Assembly (NCBI RefSeq): GCF_000772955.1
Contig: NZ_JPVO01000042.1
Location: 1 to 64,000, forward strand
Direction: 5' to 3'
Source of the DNA: Ureibacillus sinduriensis BLB-1 = JCM 15800
GTDB lineage: Bacteria; Bacillota; Bacilli; Bacillales_A; Planococcaceae
DNA length: 64,000 nt
In this document: piece after piece, positions 29,619 to 44,699 of the stretch
How positions within the stretch are numbered: the first letter of the stretch is position 1
Layout of the letters: each line of letters opens with the position of its first letter
The notes under the pieces: generated by a model
Seen by the model: the letters and a program-made list of their open reading frames with translations, nothing else
Told to the model about the DNA's origin: nothing
Database searches by the model: none
Made by a program: the position numbers and the translations under genes

Positions 29619-30881
29619 GTGGCTGAAATTAAAGTTCCTGAATTGGCAGAATCAATTACAGAAGGTACCATTGCACAATGGGTGAAAAAAGTTGGAGATC
29701 GTGTTGAAAAGGGCGAATTCATCGTCGAATTGGAAACAGATAAAGTAAATGCTGAAATTATCTCAGAGGAAGCTGGCGTTCTAACTCAAGTGTTGGCTGA
29801 AGAAGGCGACACAGTTTTAGTGGGGCAAGTAATTGCCATCGTTGAAGCTGGAGAAGGAGCAGCACCAGCACCTGCTGCTGCTGTAGAAGAACCAAAAGCT
29901 GAAAGTGCGCAAACTTCGGCACCAGCACCAGCAACAGTTCCTGCAGCACCAGCACCTGTTGCTCAAGAAACTAACAATGAACGCGTAGTTGCATCTCCAG
30001 CTGCACGTAAACTAGCTCGAGAAAAGGGAATTGACTTAAGTGCAATTTCACCGGTAGATCCACAAGGTCGTGTACGCGTTCAAGACGTGGCTGCACATGG
30101 CTCTGCTCCAGTAGCGCAGGCTTCCGCGGCACCGATCACTACATCAAACGGTCCGGTAGTATTTGCTCCAGCATCAGAAACTGACCGTATTACGATCGAA
30201 AAAATGTCACGTCGTCGTCAAACAATTGCAAAACGTTTGCTTGAAGTGAAACAGTCAACAGCAATGTTAACGACATTCAATGAAATTGATATGACGAATA
30301 TTATGGCTTTACGTAAACGCAAGCAAGAAGAGTTTGTGAAGGCAAACGACATTAAACTTGGTTTCATGTCCTTCTTCACTAAAGCAGTTGTTGCTGCTCT
30401 TAAAAAGTATCCTTACGTAAACGCACAAATCAATGGTGATGAAATTCACTTAAATAACTTCTTCGATATCGGTATTGCCGTATCAACAGAAGAGGGTCTG
30501 GTAGTGCCGGTTGTTCGCGACGCAAATGCTAAAAACTTTGCTGAAATCGAGAAAGACATTGCGGACTTAGCGAAAAAAGCACGTGATAAAAAGCTAGGTC
30601 TGAATGATATGGCCGGTGGTTCTTTCACAATCACTAACGGTGGAGTATTCGGATCATTGATGTCTACACCAATCATGAACGGGACACAAGCTGGTATTTT
30701 AGGAATGCACTCAATTGTTCAACGTCCTATTGCTGTAAATGGGGAAATTGAAATCCGTCCAATGATGTATGTTGCTTTATCATATGACCACCGTATCATC
30801 GATGGAAAAGATTCAGTTGGATTCTTAAAAACAGTTAAAGAATTAATCGAAAATCCAGAAGATTTACTATTAAATTCATAA
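29619..30881 (+). CDS. odhB: Dihydrolipoyl succinyltransferase, E2 of 2-oxoglutarate dehydrogenase
   Basis: The E2 core of the same complex. The N-terminal lipoyl domain (1-77) has the lipoylated Lys-42 in ETDKVNAE. An Ala/Pro-rich linker (about 80-120) precedes the E3-binding domain ([18 protein letters not shown]). The catalytic domain has the active-site motif [16 protein letters not shown]. Length is 420 residues. The start is GTG, with AAAGGAGG 9 bases upstream. The E3 subunit is not encoded here and is presumably shared with pyruvate dehydrogenase. The gene is followed by a terminator-flanked repeat element. Confidence 0.97.
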
Positions 30882-30890
30882 TACAAAAAA

Positions 30891-30913
30891 ACCTGGCGAA
30901 ACATTCGATAGGT
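30891..30913 (+). terminator. Left flanking hairpin of repeat element copy 1
   Basis: A palindromic stem begins ACCTGGCGA and ends GATAGGT, ten bases after the odhB stop. It matches the hairpin on the right side of the element (31119-31141) at 19 of 23 positions. Confidence 0.7.
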
Positions 30914-31118
30914 CCAGAGTGTAGGCAAAGTCGATATATGACTTTGTCTACACGTTTTTTTAGGTTATTTCCTTAAAAATGAAGGATTATCCAGACTGTC
31001 TTGAAAACGCTTGGCAGGCAAGGCGGGCAGTCGAGTGAAGACCCGAGTAGACCATGACGTTCACGAGGGGGCGAATGAGACAACCAACGCAGAGTGAAAA
31101 CGTTTGTCAAAAGTCTGA
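30914..31118. repeat. Dispersed intergenic element, copy 1 (core about 205 bp)
   Basis: The core resembles 44463-44665 along its whole length, including GTTATTTCCTTAAAAATGAAG, ATTATCCAGACTGT, GTTCACGAGGGG and CGTTTGTCAA. It contains a 14-bp stem (30919-30932 with 30940-30953) followed by seven T residues, so it can itself terminate transcription. A second, long-range inverted repeat joins 30993-31009 with 31101-31116. I see no reading frame that both copies preserve. GC content is higher than the surrounding spacers. Confidence 0.8.
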
Positions 31119-31146
31119 ACCTAGCGAAATATCCGCTAGGTCTTTT
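31119..31146 (+). terminator. Right flanking hairpin of repeat element copy 1
   Basis: ACCTAGCG pairs with CGCTAGGT and is followed by CTTTTG. Near-duplicate of the hairpin at 30891-30913. Confidence 0.75.
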
Positions 31147-31191
31147 GTTGCTGTTCAAAGTAGCAATTTTAAATTAACAGAATAATGATTA

Positions 31192-31220
31192 TTGACATGA
31201 TATTATTAATATAGTAGTAT
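31192..31220 (+). promoter_or_regulatory. Predicted sigma-A promoter of the riboswitch transcript
   Basis: A perfect TTGACA at 31192-31197, a 17-base spacer and TAGTAT at 31215-31220. Transcription would start just upstream of the aptamer. Confidence 0.75.
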
Positions 31221-31244: not shown

Positions 31245-31506
31245 CCTCACGTTACTTGTGAGGTAGAGGCGCGATACTTAATAGTTTTTCATGGAGTTAA
31301 GAGCAAAACGATGATATGAAAAATGAGGAAATGTCGCCGAAGTGTGAATGTAGGCTCTCTACATCATGCTGGGTCTGCAGTGAATAATTGCAGGACTGTC
31401 TCAGATGGAGATCCCAACCATCTGAGGTGAGCTATCTCAGGAAGGGAACGTAAGAGGATTTGGGCTAAAACTTTAGCGACCTAAGTTCATCTTAGGTCGC
31501 TTTTTT
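31245..31506 (+). promoter_or_regulatory. Lysine riboswitch (L-box) with terminator
   Basis: The aptamer spans about 31258-31404. P1 forms from TGAGGTAG (31259-31266) and CTGTCTCA (31396-31403). The hallmark GTCGCCGAAGTG is at 31333-31344, preceded by GAGGCGCG, and GCTGGGTCTGCAG...CTGCA-like arms form the last helices before GGACTGTC. The expression platform has a CAGATGG/CCATCTG hairpin, then a 10-bp terminator stem (GCGACCTAAG with CTTAGGTCGC) and six T residues ending at 31506. An OFF switch by termination is expected when lysine binds. An upstream CCTCAC/GTGAGG pairing (31245-31263) competes with P1. Confidence 0.88.
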
Positions 31507-44432: not shown

Positions 44433-44462
44433 AAAGGTTGTCTCAAAAAGGAGGCATCCTTT
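44433..44462 (+). terminator. Left flanking hairpin of repeat element copy 2
   Basis: A 30-base imperfect palindrome begins AAAGGTTGTCTCA and ends GCATCCTTT, 15 bases after the permease stop. It matches 44666-44695 at 26 of 30 positions. Confidence 0.7.
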
Positions 44463-44665
44463 CAGAGTGTAGATAAAGTGAATATTCCGCTTTGTCTACA
44501 GATTAATTACGTTATTTCCTTAAAAATGAAGTATTATCCAGACTGTATTGAAAAAGCTAGGCAGACAAGTTTGGACACATTAGTGAAGACTCGAGTACAA
44601 CATGAGGTTCACGAGGGGAAAAACGAGACATCCAACTCAGGATGAAAGCGTTTGTCAACAACAAT
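44463..44665. repeat. Dispersed intergenic element, copy 2 (core about 203 bp)
   Basis: Similar throughout to 30914-31118. The internal stem is retained with changed bases (44468-44480 with 44488-44500), but its T run has been lost. The conserved blocks GTTATTTCCTTAAAAATGAAG and GTTCACGAGGGG are present. No reading frame is shared. The flanking hairpins differ in sequence from those of copy 1, which marks the boundaries of the element. Confidence 0.8.
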
Positions 44666-44699
44666 AAAGGATGTCTCATAAATGAGACATCCTTTATTA
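44666..44699. terminator. Right flanking hairpin of repeat element copy 2
   Basis: AAAGGATGTCTCA pairs perfectly with TGAGACATCCTTT around a 4-base loop. It lies between convergent genes and can act on both. Confidence 0.85.

Follow-up and report, generated by a model that had tools for sequence, protein, structure and literature searches.

The window analysed here, i.e., the whole stretch of 64,000 nt from Ureibacillus sinduriensis BLB-1 = JCM 15800, contains odhB, a terminator hairpin that is present twice after this gene, and a short repeat (MITE copy 1) between the two hairpins. A second copy of the repeat (MITE copy 2) lies further along the window between hairpins of its own. The features are as follows (window coordinates).

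30890..30914, + strand: left copy of the duplicated odhB terminator hairpin, 25 nt, without T-tract (flank alignment, terminator scan)
30915..31117, + strand: MITE copy 1, 203 bp, 89% identity to the 201-nt consensus of 38 copies from the same genome
30915..30930, + strand: left terminal inverted repeat CAGAGTGTAGGCAAAG of MITE copy 1, similar to the left end CAGACTGTAGACAAAC of insertion sequences (IS)
30919..30961, + strand: the MITE's own terminator, 15-bp stem and T-tract (terminator scan, pair counts); ISs have a similar 47-nt stretch
31102..31117, + strand: right terminal inverted repeat GTTTGTCAAAAGTCTG of MITE copy 1, similar to the IS right end TTTTGTCGACAATCTG
31118..31142, + strand: right copy of the duplicated odhB terminator hairpin, native T-tract kept (flank alignment, terminator scan)
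44433..44462, + strand: left copy of the 30-nt hairpin duplicated around MITE copy 2 (flank alignment)
44463..44665, + strand: MITE copy 2, ~79% identity to the consensus, right end decayed
44666..44695, + strand: right copy of the 30-nt hairpin around MITE copy 2 (flank alignment)

A preliminary description of this DNA had pointed to a core after odhB that resembles 44463-44665 throughout. The two did align over their full length, and the bounds of the first were refined to 30915-31117 (203 bp). The hairpins at 30891-30913 and 31119-31141, described as near-identical, have the same letter at 19 of 23 positions; when the whole duplication is taken (30890-30914 versus 31118-31142), the count is 21 of 25. 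The four differences are split evenly between stem and loop, and the stem letters of the right copy are, by reading, those found in relatives. As had also been described, the hairpins differ between the two MITE copies: those of copy 2 (26 of 30 positions alike) form a pair unrelated to the odhB pair. The T-tract adjoins only the right odhB hairpin. A consensus terminator scan of 30850-31200 gave two calls, the MITE's own terminator (30919-30953) and the right hairpin (31119-31141), and no call for the left hairpin copy, which has no T-tract. The 5' arm of the MITE's own terminator overlaps the left terminal repeat. The element is too short for open reading frames of at least 80 aa, and none of those listed overlaps it. 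Its flank overlap score was 34, compared to a mean of 9.4, a 99th percentile of 23 and a maximum of 28 for 400 mismatched left/right flank pairs of the same family, which served as the null for all MITE copies of this genome. A lysine riboswitch (RF00168, 107.9 bits, 31256-31442, + strand) lies shortly past the second odhB hairpin; we take the genes downstream of it to be an amino-acid ABC transporter operon.

The genome (4.0 Mb, 55 contigs) carries at least 43 copies of the MITE. The first search yielded 58 matches, corresponding to 40 distinct copies and 18 opposite-strand matches of the left hairpin, which were not counted. Two further searches added three places (C1:477838, C5:93008 and C21:101766). 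The total of 43 is a lower bound, since the first search scored 40 of 78 candidates and a later one likewise 40. Three copies (L029, L045 and L251) were dropped because their left end was undetectable. The consensus, the main flank test, and the substitution and pair counts were based on the 38 full copies of the first search, and the later copies L250 and L252 were flank-tested separately. The consensus of the 38 aligned copies is 201 nt long and ends in imperfect terminal inverted repeats, CAGAGTGTAGACAAAG and GTTTGTCAACAGTCTG. A 15-bp hairpin whose 5' arm includes the left repeat precedes a T-tract, an arrangement that resembles an intrinsic terminator. Substitution across the 38 copies was low in the arms of this left hairpin (3.7-4.3%), in the T-tract (4.6%), and in the two arms of a right-hand palindrome (3.3% and 6.4%), and higher in the left loop (17.9%), the spacer (14.3%) and the middle (8.6%). 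A separate short form of 126 bp was considered and rejected: by reading, the flanking hairpin in L048, L060 and L244 lies further out, and the left end seems simply to have diverged.

Matching flanks scoring above the 99th percentile of the null were found at 31 of the 40 both-ended copies (31 of 38 in the main test and neither of the two later copies, whose scores were 9 for L250 and 16 for L252), and the matching stretch was mostly one stem-loop. The right copies of these duplications were 14-33 nt long, with a mean identity of 91% to their left counterparts; two pairs were perfect. Of the 31 right copies, 25 folded with an outermost base pair no more than 2 nt from either end. When a limit of -5 kcal/mol was added to this fold criterion, 22 of 31 right copies passed, as did 29 of 620 shuffles. 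No clear flank duplication was detected at nine of the 40 copies: L020, L022, L023, L027, L030, L037 and L043 among the 38, in addition to the two later ones. By reading, L030, L037 and L252 have kept part of a hairpin. L009 (contig C55) is a true exception, with a 14-nt A-rich duplication that is not a hairpin and lies on the 5' side of a terminator; we presume the gene ending there to be pyrG. Such exceptions indicate either that the rule is not absolute or that old copies have been rearranged. A steady extra decay of the hairpin copy without a T-tract was also considered, and no rule emerged, the stem energies being mixed.

The state of the sites before insertion was assessed in relatives. 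After odhB, the element was absent and one hairpin was present in 24 of 24 genomes of the same genus (110 nt past the stop codon, by reading). This hairpin had a CTAGCG...CGCTAG-like core in 19 of them and was a different terminator in five. For eight further sites matched in six relatives (170 nt each), the element was absent from all 30 places read out of 35 matched. A homologous single hairpin was recognised by reading at five of the eight: L002 (6 of 6 read), L009 (4 of 6), L017 (3 of 4), L025 (4 of 5) and L010, where it was clear in one of three relatives and similar in a second. The L004 site had single yet dissimilar hairpins in all three relatives read, and L014 (one read) and L016 (two read) had no clear hairpin counterpart in the relatives. 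Single hairpins at comparable element-free sites thus indicate that insertion duplicated a pre-existing single hairpin. The preliminary description had offered this very scenario, a small non-coding element entering an existing terminator and duplicating it, and had proposed a search for further copies and a comparison with empty sites; both were carried out, and the empty sites had one hairpin rather than two.

The MITE was found in five of 25 genomes of the genus (including the one studied here) and in 11 of 151 genomes of the family, representing three of 19 genera. A 29-mer pattern of the MITE had no matches across the genome contigs searched, a set from which the present genome is possibly absent. 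Among 24 copies examined in relatives, 11 had a long left end, and the flanks of 8 of these 11 scored above the 99th percentile of their null (17; maximum 28), with the left end picked by best overlap. The L241 score, 28, just equalled the null maximum.

The terminal repeats CAGAGTGTAGACAAAG and GTTTGTCAACAGTCTG of the MITE are like the ends CAGACTGTAGACAAAC and TTTTGTCGACAATCTG of ISs present in the same genus. Identity between MITE and ISs over the left 47 nt was 79-85% in the main matches; the interiors had no similarity, so the likeness is confined to the ends. The transposase of the partner ISs belongs to the IS1182 family (NF033551, 472 bits, cut-off 270) and contains domains PF13751 and PF05598; similar genes in plasmid records carry the label IS1182 family transposase. 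We consider the repeat a MITE of the IS1182 kind and an insertion sequence of this family its likely parent.

The genome itself contained no IS1182-family gene above the family cut-off and no intact transposase. Five matching pieces were found, which represent three decayed copies (L031:1260-2650, L033/L034 and L035). All three have CAGACTGTAGACAAA at their start (a one-base variant in the C14 copy), as part of a terminator-like hairpin, and each is flanked on both sides by copies of a single hairpin. As no intact transposase was found, the MITE family looks immobile and stranded in this genome. Elsewhere in the genus, 15 of 25 transposase matches exceeded the family cut-off, intact ones among them. 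We examined 29 IS loci of the genus, 12 of which were left out because both ends were not found. Hairpin duplication was seen by reading in 14 of the remaining 17; it was missing at L100, L120 and L125, the right end of L125 being doubtful. L120 (G005) and L100 (G020) have two unrelated hairpins at their sides, as after recombination between two IS copies. The ISs come in forms of ~1.57 kb and ~1.72 kb (L102, L103 and L104 compared with L101, L106 and L122). The longer form seemingly has an extra G/C-rich palindromic module between the left end and the transposase gene, as in L031 and L035.

We extended the comparison to ISs in named genomes, taking the best 80 of at least 564 relatives for one query. 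They come from Ureibacillus, Lysinibacillus, Sporosarcina, Cytobacillus, Neobacillus, Peribacillus, Saccharibacillus and other genera. Several share a genome, so the 80 loci are separate insertions and not separate lineages. Five loci (L133, L151, L169, L171 and L207) were left out since both ends were not found. Among the 75 both-ended loci of these best 80 of at least 564, a stem-loop target duplication scored above the null (99th percentile 14, maximum 20) in 72, the exceptions being L137, L141 and L192; IS ends were chosen by best flank overlap, a freedom that the null lacked, though perfect matches leave little room for it. In all 72 duplications (best 80 of at least 564), the outermost pair lay within 2 nt of both ends and the minimum free energy was -5 or lower, as was the case for 90 of 1440 shuffles. 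Letter-perfect duplications numbered 68 of the 72, with lengths of 19-42 nt (same best 80 of at least 564). A T- or A-tract adjoined 63 of the 72, compared to 228 of 1440 places drawn at random from these records (best 80 of at least 564 loci). Given the stem-loop folds, the perfect copies and the range of lengths, the length of the duplication follows that of the target palindrome.

The 68 perfect duplications show where the cut lies. Complementarity between their two ends was 97-100% at inner positions 2-8 and 85% at the outermost position. Beyond the boundary, pairing was 82%, 76%, 71% and 63% at positions +1 to +4 and 43-51% at +5 to +8. The first base was A in 59 and the last base T in 60. 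The cut is therefore symmetric about the palindrome and lies in the A/T run by the stem, and the last pairable base does not mark it strictly, since pairing often runs one to four pairs beyond the boundary.

Other IS1182-family loci of this genus behaved differently. The outer flanks of L099 and L108-L111 had no common 12-nt word, and those of L100, L125 and L126 shared only a 12-nt word that is not a hairpin. Because these loci showed no hairpin repeat, the target rule is claimed only for the group with CAGACTGT ends; other IS1182 groups may follow different target rules. L108-L111 and L126 mostly have longer transposases that match the same NCBIfam model, and a simple test revealed no direct repeat of a hairpin around them.

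We propose, with a probability of roughly 0.88, that the MITE was moved in trans by an IS1182-family DDE transposase that joins the element ends at the feet of a hairpin, whereupon repair copies the hairpin. The target recognised by the transposase would be a palindrome that can fold into a hairpin or cruciform; in practice, such targets are mostly intrinsic terminators. On both strands, 3' ends of the element would be joined close to the 5' foot of the respective arm, within the A/T run bordering the stem, and gap filling would then copy the whole stem-loop. The target duplication would consequently be as long as the hairpin (about 19-42 nt) instead of having a fixed length. Mobilisation in trans is something we infer, because MITE and ISs share their ends alone and this genome has no intact transposase. 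After insertion, the hairpin copy that keeps the T-tract should still terminate transcription; the other copy loses its T-tract, and the terminator in the left end of the MITE should stop incoming transcripts. To judge from this anatomy, insertion should leave termination at the gene end intact, because one copy keeps the T-tract and the element brings its own terminator. On balance, we also lean towards a wider version of this proposal, in which the transposases of a widespread IS1182 subgroup target an extruded hairpin or cruciform and cut both strands beside its feet, the stagger being equal to the length of the hairpin.

The same boundaries could reflect sequence and not structure. The transposase might recognise two inverted half-sites, each an A-run leading into a G/C-rich stem, at flexible spacing and on a target with no extruded hairpin. 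The prevalence of A as the first base (59 of 68) and T as the last (60 of 68), and the position of the boundaries in an A/T run, are what this reading would predict. However, the near-complete complementarity of positions 2-8 at spacings anywhere from 19 to 42 nt is not required by half-sites, and nine of the 72 sites have no T- or A-tract by the criterion used. We regard this explanation as unlikely.

Quite improbable, in our view, is a choice of hairpins through pausing or termination of RNA polymerase, with an R-loop or an exposed single strand as the target instead of a DNA cruciform. The enrichment of T- or A-tracts by the stem (63 of 72 sites versus 228 of 1440 random places) would fit such a choice, but terminators are common strong palindromes anyway, and the tract is missing at nine of the 72 sites. 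Moreover, the symmetry of the duplications about the palindrome is not explained by a transcription signal, which is one-sided.

It is very improbable that the repeat is a structured non-coding RNA or a regulatory element downstream of genes, with terminators doubled by slippage or recombination. The stretch does fold better than 200 shuffles (z -4.9), and two-sided changes were counted in five of the 15 pairs of the left hairpin, compared to none of the 19 pairs of the right-hand palindrome. Shuffles for the left hairpin gave a mean of 1.2 such pairs and never reached five (0 of 500), but one of six slid structures reached eight, more than the five observed. As a consequence, the pair changes only weakly suggest that the left terminator of the MITE is kept functional. 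Moreover, the lysine riboswitch downstream was the only hit to reach the Rfam gathering score in a scan of the window for described structured RNA families. The element also has the hallmarks of a transposon, i.e., terminal inverted repeats, flank duplications at 31 of 40 copies, and the ends and target rule of a transposase-bearing element. Finally, the other option raised in the preliminary description, that the element and both hairpins move or are kept as one unit with fast-changing ends, would account for the matching flanks, mostly hairpins, at 31 of 40 both-ended copies and is scarcely credible, as the hairpins are locus-specific and single at the same loci of element-free relatives, i.e., they belong to the host sites, and 68 of 72 IS duplications (best 80 of at least 564) are perfect and likewise locus-specific.

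Joining of element ends at hairpin feet by an IS1182-family transposase has parallels in print. Some members of the family are known to target palindromes (Siguier et al., as cited in the passages seen of PMC5678879 and PMC4923244). In the same passages, IS1272 and TnSha1 of staphylococci, members of the same family, are described as likewise inserting into stem-loops, several of them terminators, with no sequence consensus (PMC5678879, PMC4923244). In contrast to the present elements, which keep the stem-loop twice, they remove it wholly or partly and produce no duplication. Furi 2016, in the parts available, reports that TnSha1/IS1272 enters hairpins, several of which are confirmed terminators, and deletes part of them (PMC4923244). 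Wan 2017 proposes that the 3' ends of IS1272 are joined to the 3' feet of an extruded stem-loop and that the stem-loop is subsequently lost; in pathway b of the model (Figure 13), the joints would lie at the 5' feet instead, and the result would be a duplicated stem-loop (PMC5678879). The present elements are a set of cases in line with pathway b. Replacement of the IS1272 type was not what we observed: duplications were present at 31 of 40 MITE copies (that of L009 being non-hairpin) and at 72 of 75 ISs (best 80 of at least 564). Within the family, the rule is not general, since ISPse1, an IS1182 member of Paracoccus, is listed with a 4-bp duplication in the part seen of PMC3281130. The present ISs and MITE have common ends, a left-end terminator and a target rule, the MITE having no transposase; the passages of the IS1182 literature consulted do not describe a stem-loop duplication set by the palindrome. 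The earlier statement that no such element had been described therefore held in part: in these sources, the duplication itself is only drawn as a model pathway, and the targeting of palindromes by IS1182 members and the deletion of hairpins by IS1272 are already in print (PMC5678879, PMC4923244). Bacterial MITEs, as portrayed in the portion seen of a review, are likewise short, non-coding, multicopy and mostly intergenic, with terminal inverted repeats (PMC10969869). Unlike those reviewed, the present MITE duplicates its target hairpin and has a terminator of its own inside one end; the term IS1182 has 0 occurrences in this review.

A literature search covering titles and the starts of abstracts, with ISfinder/TnPedia and most subscription papers outside its scope, found no whole-terminator duplication by an IS or MITE. 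Variable duplication lengths are reportedly given for the IS1182 family in ISfinder, and parts of the present finding may be recorded there. Relative to the sources covered, the new elements are hairpin duplication as a rule and a MITE that follows it, with an earlier description in ISfinder or subscription reviews being possible. Terminators and palindromes also serve group IIC introns and REP-targeting insertion sequences as harmless landing sites, via different enzymes.

The length of a target duplication is normally regarded as a fixed property of the transposase. Here, it varies with the palindrome between 19 and 42 nt, and targets of this kind are deleted by IS1272, a sibling. One family thus offers both outcomes, and the drawn model can therefore be tested by comparing the two enzymes. 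If the proposal is true, a DDE enzyme whose duplication length is determined by structure-measured cleavage would be unusual, and the present group would be the stem-loop-duplicating counterpart, within one family, to stem-loop replacement by IS1272. For ISs and MITEs with a backup terminator of their own, intrinsic terminators would then be landing sites that repair themselves. The MITE seems to spare its host, as it lands on terminators and brings one along. Hairpin duplication also helps in practice to locate precisely where ISs of this group, and their MITEs, begin and end, and explains puzzling twin terminators in annotation.
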